From Bacteroidetes bacterium CG2_30_33_31 (GTDB lineage: Bacteria > Bacteroidota > Bacteroidia > Bacteroidales > UBA1556): DNA of 64,000 bases. The first letter of the stretch is position 1; every line of letters begins with the position of its first letter. Of this stretch, positions 41,230-55,187 are shown in pieces. Position numbers and translations under genes: made by a program. Below the pieces are notes generated by a model. It saw nothing but the letters and a program-made list of their open reading frames with translations. It searched no databases and was not told the DNA's origin. Where the stretch lies: the NCBI GenBank assembly GCA_001872625.1, contig MNXP01000054.1:1-64000 (forward strand), read 5' to 3'.

Positions 41230-43071
41230 TTACTCCAAAAGAATTTTCTTCACAATGGATTTATCAGCGACAGAAATCCTTACAAAATAAAAACCCTTAT
41301 TATAATTTGGAATCAACTCCTCAGGCTTATTAGAGTTCATTTTAATTAAGCTTAACCCATTTTCATCAAAAATTTCTAAAATACTGTTAGATAAAGACTT
41401 ATTGACGATATGAATATTTTTTTCATCAGAAAAAACTTTGAAATTTGCTTCCAATAAATCATCTTGTTTTTTGAAATTAGTGGAGCTATTTATATGATAT
41501 TCAATATTTTCAATTATTGTTCCATCTTGTCGTTCGGCAGTAAATTTAAGAGTGTCATTGTCGATATTGAATTTGCAAAAATGATAGGATTTTTCGGAAA
41601 CAATAATGCTATCTGAACTTGCTTTGGGATTATAAAGCGGTGCGCCACCACCGCCAGTAGTGATATGCATAACGCCATTGACAGAGGCTCTTGCATAATA
41701 ATGATTATGGCCGGTTATAACAAACTGAACTCCATGTTTTAAGCATAGTGGTTGAATTATATTTTGCACTTTTAAATTATTAGAATGACCGCCAGCAGTC
41801 CACCCCGGTTCATGCAGGAGAATGAATTTCCATGCTTTATTGCTACTTGCCAAATCGTTCAAGAGCCAATTATACTGACAGCTTCCAATAGAATAATCGG
41901 TAAATTGATCAATAATGGAAAAATGCACTGGCCCATTATCGAATGAATAATAAAATCTTCCATTGGTAAACATCGGGTAGGGAAAATATTTTGCATAAAG
42001 GATTCCTTGCCCCTCGTGATTTCCTAAAGCGCTGCAATAAGGCAAGTTGGCTAACATTTTTTGAAGATATAAATATTGTGGGTCGAAAAATTGAGAATCC
42101 CAATCTGACTCATTATTGCCATTGGAAACAAAATCACCACTCGAAACAATAAATGTTTGAGATAATATATCATGAGCAATTTCTTCCATAATTTTTTTAG
42201 CAATTAAATTATGTTCAGCTGGATTTGTTCGTGTGTCGCCATAAGCATAAAAACTAATTTTTTTAACATTGGCGGAGGTATTAGAATAGAAACTACCCTT
42301 TTTTGTTGCGCTGCTGTCAATGCTTACTTTATAATAATATTTTGTGTTTGGCTTCAAGCTCGAAAGCATCATTTTGTGAAGGTGTGAGTTTCCATATTCA
42401 CTGCTAATTTGGGAGTTTTCATAAAAATTTGTGTCGGTGCCCCAATATATAGTACAAGTTTTCGATTCGTTCAACTGCCACAACAACAGCATTTTAGTAT
42501 CATCGTTAGAAAAAAGTAAATATGGAGCTTTTATAAATGAAGATAAGAATGAAAAATCTAATTGCAAATCAAATCTCATTTTGGATTTTGATTCTTTACT
42601 TTTATGAACTTCTACGGCAATAGTATTTTTCCCGGATTTTAGAAAATTAGAAGGAACTATATATGTGAAATAATGCTTGGAATTGTTTTCGTCAGATTCC
42701 ATTGATGCTGTGCTTGTGTATGTTATATTACCATTAGGCATATTCGAACGAATCATTTCATGTCCATTTATATAAATAATTGCTCCATCATTTCTCAAAA
42801 TCTGAAAACGTAATCCTTTCTGCTTTTTTGGATTTTTAATTTTAAACGTCTTGCGAAAGTAGAAAGTTGTTGAATTATTATTTTCGAAATTTCCTGAGAT
42901 AAAGTCTGAAGAATGAGCCCATTTATTGTCATCAAAGGTTGGATTTCGCCAACAACTATCTTGGATGGAGTCATAAGGAAGATATTTCCAACTCGATTGC
43001 TTAGAAATTATTTGGGAACTACAACTCGATATCCAAATGGAAAAAAAAAGGAGAAAAAAAATAGATTTCAT
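41230..43071 (-). CDS. Secreted metallophosphoesterase (purple-acid-phosphatase-like) with T9SS type A C-terminal sorting domain
   Basis: YGDTR, GDFVSNG, LGNHEG, VITGHNHYY; C-terminal ILEIFDENGLSLIKMNSNKPEELIPNYNKGFYFVRISVADKSIVKKILLE. Confidence 0.9.
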   Translation of the reverse strand: MKSIFFLLFFSIWISSCSSQIISKQSSWKYLPYDSIQDSCWRNPTFDDNKWAHSSDFISGNFENNNSTTFYFRKTFKIKNPKKQKGLRFQILRNDGAIIYINGHEMIRSNMPNGNITYTSTASMESDENNSKHYFTYIVPSNFLKSGKNTIAVEVHKSKESKSKMRFDLQLDFSFLSSFIKAPYLLFSNDDTKMLLLWQLNESKTCTIYWGTDTNFYENSQISSEYGNSHLHKMMLSSLKPNTKYYYKVSIDSSATKKGSFYSNTSANVKKISFYAYGDTRTNPAEHNLIAKKIMEEIAHDILSQTFIVSSGDFVSNGNNESDWDSQFFDPQYLYLQKMLANLPYCSALGNHEGQGILYAKYFPYPMFTNGRFYYSFDNGPVHFSIIDQFTDYSIGSCQYNWLLNDLASSNKAWKFILLHEPGWTAGGHSNNLKVQNIIQPLCLKHGVQFVITGHNHYYARASVNGVMHITTGGGGAPLYNPKASSDSIIVSEKSYHFCKFNIDNDTLKFTAERQDGTIIENIEYHINSSTNFKKQDDLLEANFKVFSDEKNIHIVNKSLSNSILEIFDENGLSLIKMNSNKPEELIPNYNKGFYFVRISVADKSIVKKILLE

Positions 43072-43280
43072 ATTGAGAATTTATATCTTATGTGGTGGCA
43101 AATTTAACAGAAAATATTGTTTAAGTATTTTTTGTTTTTATGAATTTAAGATTTTCAATGCTAATGAGTTAGAGCGATTTTAAAATTTCTTAAAACTGAT
43201 TTTAGAGCTTTCATTAATTTAAAGATTCAAAACTGCTATGACGAAAGATACTTTTTTTAAAGCAAAAGCGAATTTTAATC

Positions 43281-43333: not shown

Positions 43334-44494
43334 ATGAGGAAAGATAAAAGGCTTTATATAATTTTCAGCATCACACTTGTTGCAGTCATGGGAGTAGCAA
43401 GTTTAACGCCGGCATTACCAAAAATTGCTGAAACTCTGCATATTACTAAAGTACAAGTAGGCTTATTGATTAGCGCTTTTACATTTCCAGGAATATTTTT
43501 AGCGCCAATAGCGGGGATTTTAGCCGACCGTTGGGGTCGAAAAAAAGTACTCATACCATCATTATTTATCTTTGCTATTGCTGGTTCGACAGCTTTTTTT
43601 ATTCATAGCTTTCATGTTTTGGTGCTTCTTCGAATTTTTCAGGGAGTGGGTGCTTCTGCATTAGGTTCCTTAAATGTAACTTTAATTGGCGATTTTTTTA
43701 AAGGAAAGGATAGACCCAAAGTTATGGGATATAACGCCAGCGTTTTGAGTTTAGCTACTGGTTTTTTCCCTTTGATTGGTGGCATGTTGGCTGGCATTGC
43801 TTGGTATTATCCTTTTTTGTTGCCAATATTTGCAATACCTGTAGGACTCATTGTCATATTTTTTTTAGAAGAGCCTGAATTTGAGAAAACTCCAAATTTA
43901 AAAGTTTACCTAAAAGCAATTTCCAAGAGTATTCAAAGAAAAGAAGTTATTGCAACTTTTGCCCTTAGCGTTTTGACTTTTTTAATTCTTTATGGTGCAA
44001 TTTTAACGTATATCCCATTTTTATTAAGTCAAAATTTTAAACTATCGGCACCGAAAATTGGCATAGCTTTATCTTTGAGCTCACTATCTACCGCAGCAGT
44101 GGCAAGTCAAGTGGGAAAATTAACAAACAGATTTGGAAGCATAACACTCTTAAAATCAGCATTTATATTATATACAATCACCATGCTGATGGTTCCATAT
44201 ATTCACAGTTTTTATTTCTTTATAATTCCACTTTTATTATTTGGGTCTGCACAGGCATTGAATATTCCAAGCTTACAAACACTTTTGGCGAACCTTGCTC
44301 CCGATGAACAAAGAGGATTATTTATGTCTATTAATGGGATGGTTTTGCGTTTGGGACAGACCTTAGGACCTCTTGTGATAGGATTGGGATTTGCCATTGG
44401 CGGATTTGAAGGCGCTTATTTTCTGGCGGCTTCCATTGCTGTGGCTTGTCTTATAGTTATTTACACATCTTTTCATACAAATATTAGTAATTAA
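43334..44494 (+). CDS. MFS transporter (DHA1-like efflux)
   Basis: Polytopic; GILADRWGRKKVLIPSLF motif A. Start moved to ATG 43334 (MRKDKRLYIIF). Confidence 0.9.
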   Translation: MRKDKRLYIIFSITLVAVMGVASLTPALPKIAETLHITKVQVGLLISAFTFPGIFLAPIAGILADRWGRKKVLIPSLFIFAIAGSTAFFIHSFHVLVLLRIFQGVGASALGSLNVTLIGDFFKGKDRPKVMGYNASVLSLATGFFPLIGGMLAGIAWYYPFLLPIFAIPVGLIVIFFLEEPEFEKTPNLKVYLKAISKSIQRKEVIATFALSVLTFLILYGAILTYIPFLLSQNFKLSAPKIGIALSLSSLSTAAVASQVGKLTNRFGSITLLKSAFILYTITMLMVPYIHSFYFFIIPLLLFGSAQALNIPSLQTLLANLAPDEQRGLFMSINGMVLRLGQTLGPLVIGLGFAIGGFEGAYFLAASIAVACLIVIYTSFHTNISN

Positions 44495-44502
44495 ATTGCC
44501 CT

Positions 44503-45648
44503 ATGAATTTGACAATAGACATTCTTTCATTTATAAATAGCCATTCCGAAAAAGATTTTGAGCCATATTACCTTTATGACATTAATATTATTAGACAAAA
44601 TTGTCGTAAATTTCAAAATATTCCTTACCAAAATAAGGAAATACATTTTGCTTCTATGGCCAATGTTAATCCTAATTTTCTTCAAATTGTTAAGGAAGAA
44701 AAGGTAAAAGTTTTTGTAAATTCCACCATGCATCTACAGTCTGTTCAGCAAGCAGGTTTTCGAAAATCGGAAATAATTTTTACTTCCTCAGCGCTCAGCG
44801 AAAAAACTATGAAATTTGTTGAAAGTTGTGAAGTTCAAATTAACCTTGATTCGCTAAAACAACTCGAGCTTTGGCAGAAATTATTTCCCGAAAAGTCTGT
44901 TGGAATCCGCGTAAATATTGGTGACGAAGTAAAACCTTTTTCTACACGTGCAGGATTTTTTATTGGCAAAGAAAGTAGATTGGGTTTCAACATGCAAGAT
45001 ATCAATATGATAAAAGATAAATCAAAAATAAAAGGATTGCATCTTTATGTAGGAACAGATGTTTTTGACATAAATTATTTTATTGATTGCTACAAAGAAC
45101 TTATAAAAATTGCATCTTTCTTTCCAAATCTTGAATATTTGAATTTTGGTGGCGGCTTTGGTGTTTCTGAAAATGGTAAACAAAAGTTCGATTTTCCAGA
45201 ATATTATTTAAGAGTTACAAATCTTATGAATGAAGTTTCCGAAAAATATGGCAAAAGCATGAAACTTATTGTGGAACCAGGAAGAATTATCGGTGGAGAA
45301 GCTGGCTATTTTGTGTGCAATGTCACTGATATTAAAAGACGAGAAAACAAACGACTTATAGGTTTAAATGCTTCTACAGTTCAGTTTACCAGACCTTTAA
45401 TTTATCCTGGGACAGCCAAACATCCAGCAATTATTATCAGAAATGGAAATATTTTAGACTCGCAACAGAAATATAACTCTACAGTTTATGGCTGTTCCAC
45501 ATACTCGCGCGATATTTTTTCCGAAGCAGTAAATTTACCTGAATTAGAAATTGGCGACATAATAGTTTTTGGCATAGCAGGCTCATATTTAGCATCTTCA
45601 TATTGTCAATTCTTAGGATTTCCAAAACCTGATGAATATTTTTTATGA
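44503..45648 (+). CDS. PLP-dependent decarboxylase family 2 homologue (alanine racemase fold type III) lacking the canonical Schiff-base lysine
   Basis: YLYDINIIRQNCRKF, FASMAN (YAVKAN position), ESRLGF, NFGGGFGV, VEPGRIIGGEAG, CSTYSRDIF, AGSYLASSYCQFLGFPKPDEYF. Confidence 0.88.
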   Translation: MNLTIDILSFINSHSEKDFEPYYLYDINIIRQNCRKFQNIPYQNKEIHFASMANVNPNFLQIVKEEKVKVFVNSTMHLQSVQQAGFRKSEIIFTSSALSEKTMKFVESCEVQINLDSLKQLELWQKLFPEKSVGIRVNIGDEVKPFSTRAGFFIGKESRLGFNMQDINMIKDKSKIKGLHLYVGTDVFDINYFIDCYKELIKIASFFPNLEYLNFGGGFGVSENGKQKFDFPEYYLRVTNLMNEVSEKYGKSMKLIVEPGRIIGGEAGYFVCNVTDIKRRENKRLIGLNASTVQFTRPLIYPGTAKHPAIIIRNGNILDSQQKYNSTVYGCSTYSRDIFSEAVNLPELEIGDIIVFGIAGSYLASSYCQFLGFPKPDEYFL

Positions 45649-46733
45649 AAGTAGAATTTATTGATGGCAAGTCGGCATATAAGATTTTTTCTAAAGTTGC
45701 TGCCGATGTTTATAAGGGAAATAAGTTTTTTAAAGCTACAGAAAGCAGTGTAGAAAAGCTTTTGTTGAATTCTGATAGCGCCTTCAATAGCCATTCAATT
45801 ATCAAAAAATTTGTCCTAAGTGATGCTAATAATCTTGTGGCTCGTTTTGCTTTGATTCACGATTTTCGTCTTCCTGAATATATTCAAGTGTCATTCTTTG
45901 AAGCGCAGCCTGCCTTAGGCAATATCTTTGACCTTATAAAAAATGAGATTTATCATCATTTTCCTAAAGTCAGAAAAGTTGTTGTGGGATTAAATGGACA
46001 TTTGAATTATGGCGCTGGAATTTTGCTAAATCATTTCGATGAAGCTCCGCTCTTTGGACTTCCTTATAATCCAGATTATTACTCTGAGTATTTCAAAGAT
46101 TTGCATTGTCGCAAGATGTTTACTTTTAGATTTAGCATGGAAGTTTACCAAGCGTGGGCACAATCCTATTCTGTTCAGCGCGAGCTTAAAGGGTTGAAGC
46201 TTAGATTTATGAATAAACGAAATATCAAAGAAGAAAGCGCAATTTATACTCAACTCAATAATCAATCTTTTTTGCAACATCCTTACTGGGCAAATCGCGA
46301 CAATCAAGAGGATTTAGACTTGTTTTATCCTTTTCGATTTCTGTTAGATAACGAAAATTTGATCTTTGCCGAAGTCGATGATAGACCTGTGGGATTTTTT
46401 TTATGGTATCCCGATTTTAATCAATTAGTTGATAGTCAGCGTGATTTAAATGTTTTTGACCTTATAAAATACCGTTTTGGTAAGTCAATAGATAGTTTTC
46501 GATTTACCGAAATTGGCATTATTCCAGAATATCAGCGCAGCCCTGTGGCTTTGGCATTAATTAATAAATCGCTACCGACTCTTTTAGAAAAAGGCTATAA
46601 ATATTGTGAAGGAGGTTTTATCTTCGAAGAAAACCTAGCATCAATAGCTTTTGTCAAAAGGATTTTGCAACGTTGCTATGGCAAAGAACCAGAGGTTTAT
46701 CGTAAGTTTGCTACTTTTGAAAAAAACATATAA
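45645..46733 (+). CDS. GNAT-like acyltransferase (YghO-like)
   Basis: FGLPYNPDYYSEYF, FRFTEIGIIPEYQRSPVALALINKSLPTLLEKGYKYCEGGFIFEENLASI; overlaps the preceding gene. Confidence 0.68.
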   Translation: MKVEFIDGKSAYKIFSKVAADVYKGNKFFKATESSVEKLLLNSDSAFNSHSIIKKFVLSDANNLVARFALIHDFRLPEYIQVSFFEAQPALGNIFDLIKNEIYHHFPKVRKVVVGLNGHLNYGAGILLNHFDEAPLFGLPYNPDYYSEYFKDLHCRKMFTFRFSMEVYQAWAQSYSVQRELKGLKLRFMNKRNIKEESAIYTQLNNQSFLQHPYWANRDNQEDLDLFYPFRFLLDNENLIFAEVDDRPVGFFLWYPDFNQLVDSQRDLNVFDLIKYRFGKSIDSFRFTEIGIIPEYQRSPVALALINKSLPTLLEKGYKYCEGGFIFEENLASIAFVKRILQRCYGKEPEVYRKFATFEKNI

Positions 46734-47755
46734 TGTTGGAATTTAAATATATACAAGAATCTTCAAATCTCCCTGATGAATGGGATATGCTTGCCGATAA
46801 TTATTTTCAACGCAAAAGATTTCTGCTTCACAGTGAAAAATATAATCCTTGCTACCAAAGATACTATTTATGTTCGGAGAGTGGGAAATTGGTAGCAGCC
46901 GCAATTGTTTACTCCCTAAGGCTTGATATTTTTACTTTCGTGAAAATTAAAAGCCCAATAAAAATGAATATTATTGGGATTCCTTGTTCGGTTTCAAGTT
47001 CAGGAATCTTTGGAAATAATAACACAATCGAAGACCTAAAAGAATATATTTATAAAATTGAGCATGGTTTTGTTATAAGCTTAAATTTGATTTTAAAACC
47101 TTTATCCACGAAATTTGCCTCTGGAAAAACATTGCCAACTATTATATTATCAAATAATTATGAAAATTGGGAAGAATATTTGGCTTCTATGCGGTCGAAT
47201 TATAGAAGAAGATTGAAGCAAATTAATGAGCCAAATAGCAGGTTGATATTTGAAAAAATTCCATGTTCAGAATTTACTACAGCGATGTATCAGCAATATC
47301 TATCGGTGTTTATGCGCAGCAATGGCAAGTTGGAAATGTTGAGCTTCGACTTTTTCAAAAACCTCCCTGAAGAATTTATTTTAAAGGTCTGCAAAATTGA
47401 CGAAGCCATAATAGGCTGGAATATTGCGCTGTCCTCTGGAAATATTTATTACTTTTTCTTAGGTGGAATTGATTATAAATACAATAAAATTTACAATACT
47501 TATTTGCGTTTGCTTTCGTCACTCATCGAAGATGGTATTAATAAAAATGCCGAAATAATTGAACTTGGTCAAACTGCTGAGATTGCAAAAATGCGCATGG
47601 GCGGCATAGCAGAAGCTCGCTTTATGGAAGCTCACCACAGTAATTTATTATTTCATAAGGTGTTGAAAATTAGCAGCCCTATGCTTTCTTATAAACGTAA
47701 ACTGGAAAATACTAAAGCATTTAAAGACAAGCCTTATGAAAATATTAATGATTAG
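46733..47755 (+). CDS. GNAT/FemAB (BioF2-like) acyltransferase
   Basis: WEEYLASMRSNYRRRLKQ and IIELGQTAEIAKMRMGG typical of FemAB/BioF2-like acyltransferases; overlaps neighbours. Confidence 0.72.
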   Translation: MLEFKYIQESSNLPDEWDMLADNYFQRKRFLLHSEKYNPCYQRYYLCSESGKLVAAAIVYSLRLDIFTFVKIKSPIKMNIIGIPCSVSSSGIFGNNNTIEDLKEYIYKIEHGFVISLNLILKPLSTKFASGKTLPTIILSNNYENWEEYLASMRSNYRRRLKQINEPNSRLIFEKIPCSEFTTAMYQQYLSVFMRSNGKLEMLSFDFFKNLPEEFILKVCKIDEAIIGWNIALSSGNIYYFFLGGIDYKYNKIYNTYLRLLSSLIEDGINKNAEIIELGQTAEIAKMRMGGIAEARFMEAHHSNLLFHKVLKISSPMLSYKRKLENTKAFKDKPYENIND

Positions 47756-49106
47756 ACCTAAGCCTTCGAGTGAAACTATTGGACTGCAACATCTAATGAT
47801 AGTAGAGCCTTTGGAGCTTGAAATTTTATCTGCTTTAAAACGTCCTGTTGACGAGGTTGTGATAGTGGATATGATTCTTGAAAAGAACTCTTTTGAATCT
47901 TTCGTAATATTGCACAAGCCTGATATTTTGTGTATTACAGGATATATTACTAATGTTTCCACCATAATTTTATTTTGTCAAAAAGCTAAGAAAATCTCTC
48001 CAAATATTATAAATATTGTCGGTGGCGTTCATTGTGAAGTTTGCCCAGAAGATTTTGAAAATGAGGCTATTGATTATAGAGTTGTAAGAAATGCCGCCAT
48101 AATTTTTACTGATTTGCTTTGTCATATCGCTGGAAGTGGCAATTTGCCCAAAGGTGTATTTCGCCAAGGCGATACTCTTGAAAATACTACTCTTCCAGCA
48201 TTTGATTTTCGAATTCCTTTTGCCGATAGAAGTTCTGTAGCTAAATATCGCAACAAATATTTCTATATTTTTCAGAACAAAGTGGCACTAATAAAAACTT
48301 CTTTTGGTTGCCCTTACCAATGTTCATTCTGCTTTTGCAGAGTTATTACCTCTGGGAAATTTTATCAAAGACCAGTTAATGAGGTTATTGAAGAATTAGA
48401 ACAAATTTCTGAGAAGGAAATATATATTGTTGACGATGATTTTTTGTTCGATAAACAATGGCTACAAGAGTTTATTTATGAGCTTAAAAATAGAAACATC
48501 CTCAAACATTTTTTAGTCTATGGCAGAGCAGATTTCATTGCTAAAAATCCTGAAATGATGCATGATTTAGCTGCAATTGGATTAAGAACTGTTATTGTTG
48601 GTTTTGAAAGTTTTTCGGACAAAGAACTTGATTTATACAATAAAAAAACTTCGGTGGAAATGTATAAAGGGACTATGGCTGTGATACATAACGAAAAAAT
48701 TGATGTGTTTGCAACTATCATTATTCCACCCGATTATGATAAAAATGATTTTAAAGAAATGGTGAGAGTCATTAAGAAATTGGGAATTCATTTTGTCAAT
48801 CTGCAACCGCTGACGCCTCTGCCAAAAACTGAGGTTAGTTTTCCTGACGATCAAATAATTGTGGACAAGCATAATTATGAAAAATGGGATTTGGCACATA
48901 TCACCGTGAGACCTACAAAACTTTCGGTGCCCGATTTTTATAGAGAAATTTTAAAAGCTTACGATTCAATATTATACAGTCCAAAAGTGATTTGGAAATA
49001 TCTTACAACTTACCGTCCGATAATGCTTTTCAAAATGCTTATGGGAGGCTATAGAGTGGCAAAACAATATAAATCAAGAATAAAAGAAGCCGAAAAATAT
49101 GCCTAA
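47736..49106 (+). CDS. B12-binding-domain radical SAM protein (1 of 4)
   Basis: N-terminal Rossmann B12-like domain (NIINIVGGVHCEVCPEDF); FGCPYQCSFCFCR CxxxCxxC; EKEIYIVDDDFL. Confidence 0.92.
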   Translation: MKILMIRPKPSSETIGLQHLMIVEPLELEILSALKRPVDEVVIVDMILEKNSFESFVILHKPDILCITGYITNVSTIILFCQKAKKISPNIINIVGGVHCEVCPEDFENEAIDYRVVRNAAIIFTDLLCHIAGSGNLPKGVFRQGDTLENTTLPAFDFRIPFADRSSVAKYRNKYFYIFQNKVALIKTSFGCPYQCSFCFCRVITSGKFYQRPVNEVIEELEQISEKEIYIVDDDFLFDKQWLQEFIYELKNRNILKHFLVYGRADFIAKNPEMMHDLAAIGLRTVIVGFESFSDKELDLYNKKTSVEMYKGTMAVIHNEKIDVFATIIIPPDYDKNDFKEMVRVIKKLGIHFVNLQPLTPLPKTEVSFPDDQIIVDKHNYEKWDLAHITVRPTKLSVPDFYREILKAYDSILYSPKVIWKYLTTYRPIMLFKMLMGGYRVAKQYKSRIKEAEKYA

Positions 49107-50421
49107 AATACTTTTTATTCAGCCGACACAATATGCGGAATCTGGAAAATTGTGCAAACAAAAGAAGATTAATTTGCCTGGCTTAGCTTTTCCTCTTTTG
49201 GCTGCATACACTCCAGCAAATTGGCAGGTAGAATTGCTGATTGAGGTTGTGGACGAAATTGACTTTGATGCTCAGGCAGATATTGTTGCTATTGGCACCA
49301 TGGGTCATGCTACTTTTCGCGGTTTGGAAATAGCTGCTGAGTTTAAAAAACGTGGTAAAATTGTCGTTATGGGTGGTTATATGGCTTCCATAGCATACCA
49401 AGAAGCAATGAAATATGTTGATTCGGTGGTGATTGGTGATGCTGAAATCTCGTATCCCAAGATGTTGAAAGATTTTGAGGAGACTGGTAGAGTAAAAAAA
49501 TTATATAATTTCCCTATTCATGAGCTAAAAAATCTTCCCATACCTCGTTACGACTTGCTCACTCAAAAAAAAATCGGTCTAATGCTGCCTGTCCAAGCTG
49601 GTCGCGGCTGCACTTTCACATGCTCTTTTTGTTCTATTGCTTGCCTTTACGAAGGCAAATATTTGTTCCGCCCCGTTGATGAAGTTATCAATGACATAAA
49701 AGAGGTAAAGCGTTTAGGCTTTAAAAGATTTTATCTTATTGACGATAATATTGTTTCAAATCCAAAATATCTAAAAGAACTTTGCCAGAAAATTACACCT
49801 TTGAAAATGAAATGGGCAAGCCAATGTGCGATTCACCTTGCCAAAAATGCTGAATTACTGAAGATTGTAAGAGAATCAGGTTGCGATTTGATGAGCTTTG
49901 GAGTGGAAAGTATAAACCAACAAGCGATAAATAGTCTGGATAAACCATGGCTAAAAGCTGTTGACCATGAGCAAAACATCAAGATTCTTGCGGAATCGGG
50001 CATCACTGTAAGTACTGAAATGATTGTCGGCACCGATTTCGACACTGAAGAATCAATACGAGAGACTTTTGATTTTATTTATAGAAATAGAATTCCAATT
50101 CCGCGATTTTATATTCTTACGCCAATTCCTGGAACCGCTCTTTATAATGATTTAAAGCAGCAAGGACGTATGCTGACAGATGATTTGCGACAATTTGATG
50201 GCACTCGTTGCGTGCATATTCCTAAAAAAATTGAACCAGAAAAACTGACTGAAATGTATTGGTGGTTAAATAATCAAGTATTTTCAATAAAGAGTATTTT
50301 TCATCGAGTGCTTTTCAACAAATTACTTTGGAGAAATCCCAGTATGTTGCTGTTTTCCATTGCAATAAACTTTCATTATAGGCATTATGTAAAAAGAAAA
50401 ATTACACCAAACATATTTTAG
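49099..50421 (+). CDS. B12-binding-domain radical SAM protein (2 of 4)
   Basis: IVVMGGYMASIAYQEAM; GRGCTFTCSFCSIA; FKRFYLIDDNIVSNPKYLKEL. Confidence 0.94.
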   Translation: MPKILFIQPTQYAESGKLCKQKKINLPGLAFPLLAAYTPANWQVELLIEVVDEIDFDAQADIVAIGTMGHATFRGLEIAAEFKKRGKIVVMGGYMASIAYQEAMKYVDSVVIGDAEISYPKMLKDFEETGRVKKLYNFPIHELKNLPIPRYDLLTQKKIGLMLPVQAGRGCTFTCSFCSIACLYEGKYLFRPVDEVINDIKEVKRLGFKRFYLIDDNIVSNPKYLKELCQKITPLKMKWASQCAIHLAKNAELLKIVRESGCDLMSFGVESINQQAINSLDKPWLKAVDHEQNIKILAESGITVSTEMIVGTDFDTEESIRETFDFIYRNRIPIPRFYILTPIPGTALYNDLKQQGRMLTDDLRQFDGTRCVHIPKKIEPEKLTEMYWWLNNQVFSIKSIFHRVLFNKLLWRNPSMLLFSIAINFHYRHYVKRKITPNIF

Positions 50422-50422
50422 A

Positions 50423-51721
50423 ATGAAGATAACTTTAATAAAACCAAGTTTAGGCAATCTAATTACAGGTTATAACATTGCCGAGGGGAGCATGGAACCT
50501 TTGCAACTTGCTATTATTGCAGGACTTATTCTCAAACCTGATGAGGTAATTATGTATGATGAACGCATTGAAAAAATTCCCTTTGACGAACCTACCGATT
50601 TGGTTTGTATCACTGTTGATTCCTTTAGTGCCTACCGCTCTTATAAAATTTCTGCCGAATTCCAGAGTCGAGGAATAAAAGTTATTCTTGGAGGAATGCA
50701 TGCCTCTTTGCTGCCAGATGAAGCTTCCCAACACGCCGATTCCATTGTGGTAGGCGATGCAGAACCTGTTTGGAATCAAATGATTAAAGACTTTAAAGAA
50801 TCAAATCTTCAGAAAATATACCATGCTCCTTTTGGTTTGCCACAAGAAGGCTGCTTCCCTAATAGAGATATTTTTAAAGGTAAAAAATATTTGCCTGTTT
50901 CTATGCTGCAATTTAGTCGCGGTTGCAAATTTAATTGCAGTTTTTGTTCCGTATCGCAATTTTTTAATCATTCACACACCTGCCGCAAAATGGAAGATGT
51001 GCTATATGAAATAGAAAAAGATAAACTTAAGACAATTCTTTTTGTTGACGATAATATGGTTTCCAATAAAGCCGAACTCAAAGTTTTTTTGAAAGAGCTT
51101 ATTCCGCTAAAGGTTAAATGGGCAAGCCAATCGAGCATGGATTTGACGGGTGATAAAGAGCTTATGAAACTTATGGCCGACAGTGGCTGCATTGGAAATT
51201 TAATTGGATTCGAGTCAATAAATATTAATACGTTAAAATGGTTCAATAAATCGCCAAACATCAAAAATTTTGATAATTATAAAAAAGAATTAGAAATATT
51301 TAGAGATTATGGCTTTTTGACATGGGCAAGTTTTATGATTGGCAACGACTTTGACAACCTTGATACCATAGAAAAAACTGTTGAATTTGCTATAAAAAAT
51401 AAATTTACTCTGGCATTTTTTCACATTTTGATGCCTTATCCTGGCACCGAAGTTTATAATCAATTTAAAAGTGAAGGCCGATTGCTTTATGATGGCCATT
51501 GGTGGAATCATCCCGACTACCGCTACAATCAGGCAAGTTTTAAACCTAAGTTGATGAGTGCAAATCAGCTTAGTGATGCCGCTGTGAAAGCAAACAAAGA
51601 TTTTTACAGTTTATCTTCAATTTCTCAAAGGCTATTTGATGGTAAAACAAATTTTAGAAATCTTGTTAATATTATGATATACAGTCGATTGAATTATATT
51701 ATAAGGAAAACAAGCACCTAA
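50423..51721 (+). CDS. B12-binding-domain radical SAM protein (3 of 4)
   Basis: VILGGMHASLLPDEASQHADSIVVGDAE; SRGCKFNCSFCSVS; LKTILFVDDNMVSNKAELK. Confidence 0.95.
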   Translation: MKITLIKPSLGNLITGYNIAEGSMEPLQLAIIAGLILKPDEVIMYDERIEKIPFDEPTDLVCITVDSFSAYRSYKISAEFQSRGIKVILGGMHASLLPDEASQHADSIVVGDAEPVWNQMIKDFKESNLQKIYHAPFGLPQEGCFPNRDIFKGKKYLPVSMLQFSRGCKFNCSFCSVSQFFNHSHTCRKMEDVLYEIEKDKLKTILFVDDNMVSNKAELKVFLKELIPLKVKWASQSSMDLTGDKELMKLMADSGCIGNLIGFESININTLKWFNKSPNIKNFDNYKKELEIFRDYGFLTWASFMIGNDFDNLDTIEKTVEFAIKNKFTLAFFHILMPYPGTEVYNQFKSEGRLLYDGHWWNHPDYRYNQASFKPKLMSANQLSDAAVKANKDFYSLSSISQRLFDGKTNFRNLVNIMIYSRLNYIIRKTST

Positions 51722-51727
51722 AATCGT

Positions 51728-53368
51728 ATGAAACCTAAAATTCTTTTTGCTTCCCCAATCGGTCCTTATACGAAATTAGCTCTCAAGGAAGATCCTATCG
51801 ACTTTTTCTATTATCGTAATACTTTTGGGCAAAAGATGTTTCAACTGCGCTCATTTCAAAGCTGGCATTCCTTGCATTTTTTGGCTCAAAATATTGCTGT
51901 TGATTCGGTAGTTCTCGAAAATCCAACAATGAAGATTTTCCAAAAGGAGATTCATAATGGTGAATATGAGATAATTGCCATAGGTTTTACAATCCTTCTT
52001 ACAAAAAAGGTTTTGGAAATGGTGGAATGGATTAAGTTAAATTTTCCCGCGATAGAAATTGTTATCGGCGGCTATGGAACAGCTGTTTTTACAGAATCTT
52101 TTGAGACTTCTGACAAGCTGAAAAATATGGTAAATTATATTAGCTATGGTGAAGGCTTAGAATTAATGAATTCAATTATCAAGCATAAATGGAATATCAA
52201 TAATAACAATAAGGTTCTAAGGCAAGATTTACTTCCAGCAAAAAATAGCTTTTTCAGAACTCATATAGAAATTTTTCAGCAGATTGTTCTCGTTGGAGGT
52301 CTGGGTTGTGTTTTTGGCTGTTCTTTCTGCGCCACTTCAAGTCAATTCAACAAAAAGTATATTCCACTTTTCACTGGAAAGCAACTTTTCGATAGCCTGT
52401 GTGAACAAAGAAAGAAGCATCCTACAATTAAATCAGCTATTATTTATGATGAGGATTTTCTCTTAAATCGCAGGCAGGTTTTAGAATTTATTGAATGTTT
52501 CAAAAATAGCGAACTACAAAATAGCGGCATGCTATTGACAATTTTTGCCAGTTTGAAATCTCTTTTGAATTTTAGTCGTGAAGAGCTTATCGATTGCGGA
52601 GTAGGCAGCATTTTTATTGGTGTCGAATCTCTCAGCGAAGAAGTGCTGAAAAGGGAAGGGTTGACAAAAAGAAAAGGCGAAGTTGAAGATATTTTTAGGC
52701 AGTTGCATTCTTATGGAATTAATACAATTGGCTCCCTCATAATTGGTTGGGATAGTCAAAATTTGATGCTGGCTAAGTCCGATTCTGAGCGTTTTATAAA
52801 TATGAATCCTACATTTTATCAGGTTGTGCCATTGCATATTGTACCAGGCACTAAGCTCTGGGACGAAATGAAACTTGCCGAAAGAGTATTGCCAAATTAT
52901 AAAGTGGAGTTCGATGGAATTACGGATTTTAATTTTGAAGCTAAGAGTTTCTCTCACCATGAAGCTCGAGACCTTGTATTTAAAACTTATGATGGTCTGG
53001 TAAAAGAGGGAGGGCCATGGCCATTTAGATTTTTTGAAAACCTTCTTTATGGATATCTTAATTTGAAAGAGAAAAATGAAGCCAATTTATTTAATAGAGC
53101 AAAAATTTATAAGTCGATGCTCCCTGCTACTTTTATTCTTGCATTCGCCTCACGCTATTTCTTTTTCGGCAAAAACTACCGATACCGTTGGAATCAAAGC
53201 ATGAGAAAATTTATAAAGCATTCTCCAATGCTATTTTTTTTGGGAACAGTTATCTCGCCATTTGTGGCATTTTTGCTCCTGGTCATTTGGTTTTATGGAA
53301 ATATTAAATTCCTATTCAGTCGAAAAGGAGATCAACCAGATTTTATCAGGAGAGAATATTTTAGTTAA
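51728..53368 (+). CDS. B12-binding-domain radical SAM protein (4 of 4), with C-terminal hydrophobic segment
   Basis: IEIVIGGYGTAVFTESFE; GLGCVFGCSFCATS; VGSIFIGVESLSEEVL; C-terminal MLFFLGTVISPFVAFLLLVIWFY. Confidence 0.92.
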   Translation: MKPKILFASPIGPYTKLALKEDPIDFFYYRNTFGQKMFQLRSFQSWHSLHFLAQNIAVDSVVLENPTMKIFQKEIHNGEYEIIAIGFTILLTKKVLEMVEWIKLNFPAIEIVIGGYGTAVFTESFETSDKLKNMVNYISYGEGLELMNSIIKHKWNINNNNKVLRQDLLPAKNSFFRTHIEIFQQIVLVGGLGCVFGCSFCATSSQFNKKYIPLFTGKQLFDSLCEQRKKHPTIKSAIIYDEDFLLNRRQVLEFIECFKNSELQNSGMLLTIFASLKSLLNFSREELIDCGVGSIFIGVESLSEEVLKREGLTKRKGEVEDIFRQLHSYGINTIGSLIIGWDSQNLMLAKSDSERFINMNPTFYQVVPLHIVPGTKLWDEMKLAERVLPNYKVEFDGITDFNFEAKSFSHHEARDLVFKTYDGLVKEGGPWPFRFFENLLYGYLNLKEKNEANLFNRAKIYKSMLPATFILAFASRYFFFGKNYRYRWNQSMRKFIKHSPMLFFLGTVISPFVAFLLLVIWFYGNIKFLFSRKGDQPDFIRREYFS

Positions 53369-53423: not shown

Positions 53424-55187
53424 TTATAATCCAAACAAATATTTCTCTTTGCCTTTCTGTGCCCAATTTTCGGGAACAATTTTCCAGCTGTTAAGTTTGT
53501 TAGCTTTAAAAGATTTTTGTTCTTCAATCCATTTCATTATTAAAAATCTGAAGTCTAAATCTGAGCTTACAATTAATCTTTTTGAAAGTTCTTCTGATGA
53601 AATTCCAGCACCTTTAGTAAGAATATTGCCACCACCATTGCCTCTATACGAGTTCATCGCAACAGAATAATCTTTTTTCAAATCGAATGCTGAGCCATCT
53701 GCCATCGACAAAATACTTATTCTTTTCCCCACTTCTTTTCTTATGTCAACTTCGTAAATTATTCCAGCACCACTATCGAAATTATAAAATGGATTTTCGA
53801 GATTAACCTTTCCATTGCTACTCAAAATATCCTGACCCAATGAATCTCTTTTGCACAATAAAATCGAACTTTTCTCATCCGCCATTGTGCTTAGCCAATT
53901 GCCATAAGAATATTCCAAAGCGTCTTTTACTTCCTGACCCGTCAAGCGCATTGTGTAAAGGAAATTTTCATAGCGATAAAGCTTGAACATATCGCGAACA
54001 TACAATTGACCTGAGTCGATTTTAACGGAAATAGAGAACGGTGATGCGAATGAAATGTCGGCTTTAGATAAATTTAACTGAACTATATGAACTAAATCAA
54101 CAAATTCTGAGGAGCCAAATAGAGCATCTTTCGAATCAATATTATTTTGCAATTTTCCTATCGGACGATTTACGTATTTTTCTACATTATAGAGACTTAC
54201 ATTGAATTTATATTGAAAAAGGCTGTCGGGTTTTATAGCTTCCATTGGTTGAATGCTTCCTTTTATATCCACATTATATTTCTTTTTTACTTTATCATAT
54301 TTCATACAAATATCGGCAACGCCAACATTAGTTGCATGTGCAGAAGGGTTTAAGATAAGAGTACTATCGCCATTAGAATTTCGTATAAAAAAATTTGCAA
54401 ATTGGTGGTCGTGACCAGCAAAAATTATATCAAAGCCAGGAACCTTTTCAGCTACCAGTAGGCAAGCATTTTCGTTGAATTTCGCCTTTGGATCGGCGCC
54501 ACCGTAAGAAGGATTTGTGCCGCTATGAAAAAGGCCAATGAGCAGGTCTGGTTTTTCGTTTTCTTCAATATAGTTTTTCCAATATTTTGCCGATTCTATC
54601 ATATCGTTGAAATGCATGCCTGACCAAATATTTCGTGGCAACCAATTTGGAATGGCAGGAGTAATTAATCCAAGAATTGCAATTTTAACTCCTTGTCTTT
54701 CAATAATTTTATATGGTTTAAAGTATGGCTTTTCGTCAAAATCATTAATAGCATTTGCGGCTAAAATATCAAAGTTCACTTCTTTTCTAAATTTATCATA
54801 AACAGGATGGCCTGCTTCTATATCGTGATTGCCAATGGTAGCAACATCATAAGCCATAAAATTCATTACCTTCGATAAAAGATGAATGGAATCTGGAACT
54901 TCAAAATTGTAATAATAAACTAACGGTGTGCCTTGCAAAATGTCGCCATTGTCAATCAAAATTACTTCTTGACTTTTGTCTTCCCTTTGTTCAGTAACAT
55001 AAGTATATACCTGAGCAAGAGAGCCTTCGCTAATTTTTTGGTTAATCAAATCTTTAGGAAATATAGCACCATGAACATCAGTGGTCTCAATAATTTTTAG
55101 CTTTATTTCTTTTTGTGTTGTCATAAAAACAGTTTTACATCCAGCAATAAGAATTGCAAGAGTTATCATTATTATCAGTTTCTTCAT
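53424..55187 (-). CDS. 5'-nucleotidase / 2',3'-cyclic-nucleotide phosphodiesterase family lipoprotein
   Basis: Lipobox LIAGC; IIETTDVHGAIFP, LIDNGDILQGTP, ATIGNHDIEAG, IIFAGHDHQ, AMNSYRGNGGGN. Confidence 0.92.
   Translation of the reverse strand: MKKLIIMITLAILIAGCKTVFMTTQKEIKLKIIETTDVHGAIFPKDLINQKISEGSLAQVYTYVTEQREDKSQEVILIDNGDILQGTPLVYYYNFEVPDSIHLLSKVMNFMAYDVATIGNHDIEAGHPVYDKFRKEVNFDILAANAINDFDEKPYFKPYKIIERQGVKIAILGLITPAIPNWLPRNIWSGMHFNDMIESAKYWKNYIEENEKPDLLIGLFHSGTNPSYGGADPKAKFNENACLLVAEKVPGFDIIFAGHDHQFANFFIRNSNGDSTLILNPSAHATNVGVADICMKYDKVKKKYNVDIKGSIQPMEAIKPDSLFQYKFNVSLYNVEKYVNRPIGKLQNNIDSKDALFGSSEFVDLVHIVQLNLSKADISFASPFSISVKIDSGQLYVRDMFKLYRYENFLYTMRLTGQEVKDALEYSYGNWLSTMADEKSSILLCKRDSLGQDILSSNGKVNLENPFYNFDSGAGIIYEVDIRKEVGKRISILSMADGSAFDLKKDYSVAMNSYRGNGGGNILTKGAGISSEELSKRLIVSSDLDFRFLIMKWIEEQKSFKANKLNSWKIVPENWAQKGKEKYLFGL

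Follow-up and report, generated by a model that had tools for sequence, protein, structure and literature searches.

Among the described systems closest to the locus analysed here is bacterial ceramide synthesis, which is encoded by genes in the arrangement Spt-bCerS-CerR (PMC11334938, PMC11087976, PMC11324152). The GNAT acyltransferase of our operon groups by full-length profile with the GNATs of loci containing serine palmitoyltransferase (SPT) and epimerase genes, but the operon lacks Spt- and CerR-like genes and adds B12-type radical SAM enzymes, a FemAB-like protein and a homologue of PLP-dependent decarboxylases. This PLP homologue shares fold type III and the phosphate-binding motifs with diaminopimelate and ornithine decarboxylases, but has Met, Thr, Tyr and Phe where these enzymes have Lys, Cys, Glu and Asp. 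ODC antizyme inhibitors and ODC-like paralogues are likewise fold-III proteins in which decarboxylase activity is absent or catalytic residues are altered (the planarian ODC paralogue ODC6 carries Lys69Ser; PMC5574924), but unlike the PLP homologue they are eukaryotic and are found outside biosynthetic operons. The literature searched contained no published description of the cassette.

The operon lies in a 64,000-nucleotide stretch of DNA (the window) from Bacteroidetes bacterium CG2_30_33_31 (GCA_001872625.1, contig MNXP01000054.1, positions 1 to 64,000, forward strand). It consists of eight plus-strand ORFs (43334-53368) whose junctions overlap or leave gaps of at most 8 bp, flanked on both sides by minus-strand genes for a phosphatase-like protein (41230-43071) and a 5'-nucleotidase-like protein (53424-55187). 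All eight ORFs were found where a preliminary description, made from the window alone, had placed them. The first gene encodes an MFS exporter (43334-44494; Pfam MFS_1, E 1.8e-60), with an alternative in-frame ATG upstream at 43238, and the second encodes the PLP homologue, a diaminopimelate/ornithine decarboxylase-like protein without the Schiff-base lysine (44503-45648; Orn_Arg_deC_N, 1.1e-25). These are followed by a GNAT acyltransferase of the bCerS-like group (45645-46733) and a FemAB-like acyl- or aminoacyltransferase (46733-47755), whose Pfam scores (GNAT, 0.001; Acetyltransf_6, 0.0012) are both slightly below the curated cut-offs. The last four genes encode the radical SAM proteins R1 (47736-49106), R2 (49099-50421), R3 (50423-51721) and R4 (51728-53368). 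The GC content of the operon is 0.343, compared with 0.335 for the remaining window.

Related loci were sought in 393 genomes of the order Bacteroidales with a two-row profile of the PLP homologue, which gave a strong match in six: the window genome, G037, G574, G662, G571 and, as a partial copy, G078. An initial contig scan with the PLP homologue alone gave no match, while a scan with the two-row profile recovered the G037 contig as the only lysine-less relative. No further copy was found in the other 395 genomes of a phylum-wide sample at E 1e-45. G574 encodes the PLP homologue, GNAT, FemAB, R1, R2 and an interrupted R3, in that order. The same order is seen in G571 as far as R2 and in G662 as far as R1, each with a small beta-helix gene after that of the PLP homologue, and the syntenic genes of these three loci are 49-85% identical to those of the window. 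In G037 only the PLP homologue and GNAT genes are present, with a gene for a SPASM-type radical SAM protein after them. In these relatives, identities to the window proteins are 45-67% for the PLP homologue, 39-71% for GNAT, 49-64% for FemAB, 59-75% for R1 and 77-85% for R2. The G078 copy consists only of C-terminal pieces of the PLP homologue and GNAT on separate contigs (L086, 2387-3022; L087, 3907-4155) and has the appearance of a decaying copy. The beta-helix gene of G662 (L084, 8768-9439) and G571 (L085, 8983-9651) has an apparent N-terminal signal. The interruption of R3 in G574 is an insertion of about 190 bp (L083, 2870-3075) that is MITE-like, having nearly perfect 23-bp inverted repeats at its ends and what looks like a short duplication of the target.

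A tblastn search of a plasmid collection extended the comparison to another phylum. The collection includes a 2.63-Mb Acetoanaerobium noterae record (NZ_CP154629.1) that is filed as a plasmid and whose size suggests a chromosome. In this record, homologues of R1 (46%) and R2 (47%) lie side by side in an operon with the order EamA, GNAT (31%), FemAB (29%), R1-like radical SAM, class I methyltransferase, R1, R2 and a further R1-like radical SAM. It thus has four radical SAM genes and keeps the core GNAT-FemAB-R1-R2, 29-47% identical to that of the window, in unchanged order. Within the set of radical SAM proteins compared, R1 of the window and R1 of Acetoanaerobium are reciprocal best matches, as are the two R2 proteins. 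R2 also has a conserved C-terminal tail, (K/R)ITP(N/G)I(F/V), which reads ITPNIF in the window and in Acetoanaerobium. The order of the core is therefore conserved in Bacteroidota and Bacillota. The Acetoanaerobium operon has no PLP homologue, so this protein is not essential to the core. As the core is present in a cultured clostridium (A. noterae DSL2), the pathway is open to deletion and metabolomics.

The only R2 match in the phylum-wide sample is at a locus from another class of Bacteroidota (L090), which encodes on one strand R2 (41%; tail ITPGIV), R1 (31%), a fold-I alpha-oxoamine synthase, FemAB (28%), a P450 and a sulfotransferase, and on the opposite strand GNAT (21%). It is looser than the Bacteroidales loci and is the only such locus in 115 genomes of its order; the G330 order sample held no further loci. 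The alpha-oxoamine synthase has ordinary family scores, which suggests that scaffold supply differs between loci.

The preliminary description had proposed an eight-gene operon and had named scatter of the genes in relatives as one ground for rejecting it. Gene order is kept in relatives, with no independent scatter, and the operon is more than a chance arrangement because synteny of the block extends to other genera and its core recurs in another phylum. The unit is conserved for five to six genes. The eight-gene boundary is too wide, since no related locus found contains the MFS or the R4 gene, and R4 was found only in the window genome, with no match in 245 other genomes of the order at E 1e-40. 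The operon membership of these two genes rests on their adjacency. An exporter gene heads the operon in the window (MFS) and in Acetoanaerobium (EamA-type). The nearest NCBIfam model to the MFS protein is the bacillibactin exporter BcbE, at 143 of 600 bits.

All four of R1 to R4 have a Pfam Radical_SAM match and a CxxxCxxC motif, and together they make up four of the 21 radical SAM matches of the genome. The pairing of a B12-binding domain with a CxxxCxxC domain, as in class-1 cobalamin-dependent radical SAM enzymes, is present, with R1 above both Pfam cut-offs. R1 alone exceeds the cut-off for B12-binding; the domain is weak in R2 and R3, and R4 has no Pfam match to it but has a weak B12-like N-terminus by a partial TIGR04013 match and by hhalign. 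By sequence, R1, R2 and R3 are B12-type radical SAM proteins. None of the four reaches a curated NCBIfam cut-off, so the preliminary description's other ground for rejection, that they fall into a known family with an unrelated housekeeping function, does not apply either. The best NCBIfam match of R1 is HpnR, the hopanoid C-3 methylase (TIGR04367), over nearly the full length but at 158.8 bits against a cut-off of 650, and the 94.6% complete genome has no match to hopene cyclase (TIGR01507). Hopanoid methylation by R1 was rejected on these two grounds. R2 and R3 match HpnJ- and BchE-type models and are paralogues of each other (32% identity), and R4 has a C-terminal transmembrane-like segment. 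Viral contigs scanned with an R1 profile gave no match.

The operon GNATs were compared with those of L090 and four further loci (L094 to L097), most of them with SPT-like, epimerase or PAP2 genes as neighbours. The two groups gave a full-length hhalign profile match (352 columns, E 2.9e-32), the operon GNAT being only about 20-25% identical to its ceramide-locus relatives. In L096 the GNAT gene is flanked by an epimerase-family gene and a gene for serine palmitoyltransferase (621 of 640 bits), and in L095 and L097 it precedes epimerase-family and PAP2-type genes (PAP2 by Pfam in L095, by resemblance in the ORF list in L097). No SPT, epimerase or PAP2 neighbours were seen beside the L094 GNAT. 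A Streptomyces plasmid carries an annotated triad of aminotransferase I/II, GNAT and epimerase. By their gene content, these SPT/GNAT/epimerase neighbourhoods match the published Spt-bCerS-CerR arrangement (PMC11334938, PMC11087976). The profile match relates the operon GNAT to GNATs whose genes adjoin those for serine palmitoyltransferase and epimerases, and it has the homology to GNATs of Spt/CerR-type loci expected of a bCerS; co-location with Spt and CerR, which is missing from the window operon, is common but not obligatory for bCerS. L095 (592-3585) is on contig 22 of the window genome itself and, given its consecutive genes for GNAT, an epimerase-family protein and PAP2, is a candidate ceramide-type lipid locus.

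The most surprising element of the operon, unnoticed in the preliminary description and new here, is the loss of the Schiff-base lysine from the PLP homologue. Five of these proteins were compared with 36 lysine-bearing relatives: the Schiff-base position is Met in 5/5 (M52) and Lys in 36/36. All five orthologues also have F71 for Asp, T333 for the catalytic Cys and Y334 for the adjacent Glu. From the alignment, we take the Lys, Asp and Cys columns to correspond to K69, D88 and C360 of ODC. The replacements are identical across five genomes from four families, and sequencing error is ruled out as their source by the independence of these genomes. The motifs of the phosphate and pyridine sites are invariant: GGG (of GGGFG) at 216-218, EPGR (E-x-G-R) at 258-261 and the phosphate Tyr at 362. 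Compared with fold-III PLP decarboxylases (LysA/ODC), the protein thus lacks the Lys, the Cys and the adjacent acidic residue and keeps the phosphate-site motifs. It scores 183 bits against TIGR01048 (cut-off 297.9), and a housekeeping LysA role was rejected because the genome has a separate LysA above the family cut-off. In a phylogeny with distant relatives, two own-genome rows being disregarded, the five orthologues form one clade (support 100/99), but long branches make its point of attachment unreliable. Judged by its residues, the PLP homologue is not a normal PLP decarboxylase, and its initial reading as an ordinary amino-acid PLP enzyme is unsupported because the catalytic residues are replaced in every orthologue. 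It has most likely lost the ability to decarboxylate by way of an internal aldimine. We propose that it would hold a ligand that is phosphorylated or derived from B6, and would act with the GNAT as its partner or scaffold or else carry out lysine-independent chemistry. The GNAT gene adjoins its own or lies one gene away in every intact Bacteroidales orthologue found. The invariant loss of the lysine makes it a clean test case for the capabilities of a fold-III B6 protein deprived of its defining residue.

The stronger of two alternative accounts of this protein, to which we give slightly less than an even chance, is that it is a pseudo-enzyme without activity whose role is purely structural or regulatory, as with the ODC antizyme inhibitors or the Lys69Ser planarian paralogue. 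The whole catalytic set is gone, there are precedents (PMC5574924, PMC10762828), and the gene is tightly linked to GNAT in all four intact related loci. However, the retained phosphate-site motifs suggest selection for a bound ligand.

The other account, which we consider rather unlikely, is that the protein is still catalytic, holding PMP or a PLP-substrate adduct noncovalently and using another residue. Lysine-less PMP-dependent dehydratases of fold type I are a comparable case. The invariance of GGGFG, EPGR and the phosphate Tyr fits such activity, as do the same replacements in five genomes from four families, unlike random decay, but the catalytic Cys, Glu and Asp have been lost along with the Lys, and no lysine-less fold-III PLP catalyst was found in the literature searched.

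For the operon as a whole, we propose with moderate confidence that it is the version found in this species of a so far uncharacterised biosynthetic cassette with the core GNAT-FemAB-R1-R2, whose product would be an acylated, C-methylated amino compound. Going by the families present, from which the order of steps is also taken, the GNAT would N-acylate an amine with a fatty acyl-CoA or -ACP as donor, FemAB would attach a second group, either acyl or aminoacyl, R1 and R2 (here with R3 and R4) would C-methylate or rearrange unactivated scaffold carbons, and the MFS protein would export the finished compound. The product is probably a chemically unusual small molecule that is acylated and exported. 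The earlier interpretation is thus partly supported, and the combination of acyl transfer, B12-type radical SAM enzymes and an exporter bears out its idea of a dedicated pathway. More tentatively, the locus may represent a cross-phylum class of B12-radical-SAM pathways without an NRPS, PKS or RiPP precursor that build acylated, C-methylated amino compounds, in which Bacteroidales employ a fold-III B6-type protein working without the Schiff-base lysine. Such a pathway could escape cluster detectors that rely on NRPS, PKS or RiPP signatures.

It is possible, if doubtful, that the product is not secreted but stays in the membrane as a lipid resembling ceramides, sulfonolipids or aminolipids, which the radical SAM enzymes would C-methylate or cross-link. 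The occurrence of the operon's GNAT group at SPT/epimerase loci points this way, as do the joining of the core with an alpha-oxoamine synthase in L090, the lipid methylase HpnR as the nearest model of R1, the HpnJ- and BchE-type matches of R2 and R3, and the transmembrane-like segment of R4. An exported small molecule, our preferred reading, is favoured by the small-solute exporters that head the window and Acetoanaerobium operons (MFS and EamA), neither of which includes an alpha-oxoamine synthase.

In the congener G006, an apparent Rnf operon and other genes occupy the region between TsaD and the 5'-nucleotidase, without the eight-gene operon, and in the congener G005 an apparent Rnf-like operon lies on the nucleotidase side, the Rnf label being our own reading of the sequences. 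That unrelated plus-strand genes have come to lie together here by chance, as the absence of the operon from genus mates might suggest, is highly improbable and is contradicted for five to six core genes, MFS and R4 apart, by the order kept across genera and phyla. The sparse distribution and the congener intervals fit either gain by transfer or repeated loss.

A mobilizable IncFIB/IncFII plasmid of Citrobacter portucalensis (NZ_CP134684.1) carries a cluster (L122, 11069-22455) with five radical SAM, N-acetyltransferase, GH3, PAP2 and fatty acid desaturase genes. The GH3, PAP2 and desaturase genes set it apart from the operon, as does the lack of GNAT, FemAB or PLP homologue matches at E 1e-5, but the two have in common an N-acetyltransferase, multiple radical SAM genes and a relative of R3, to which one of the plasmid's radical SAM proteins is 46% identical.
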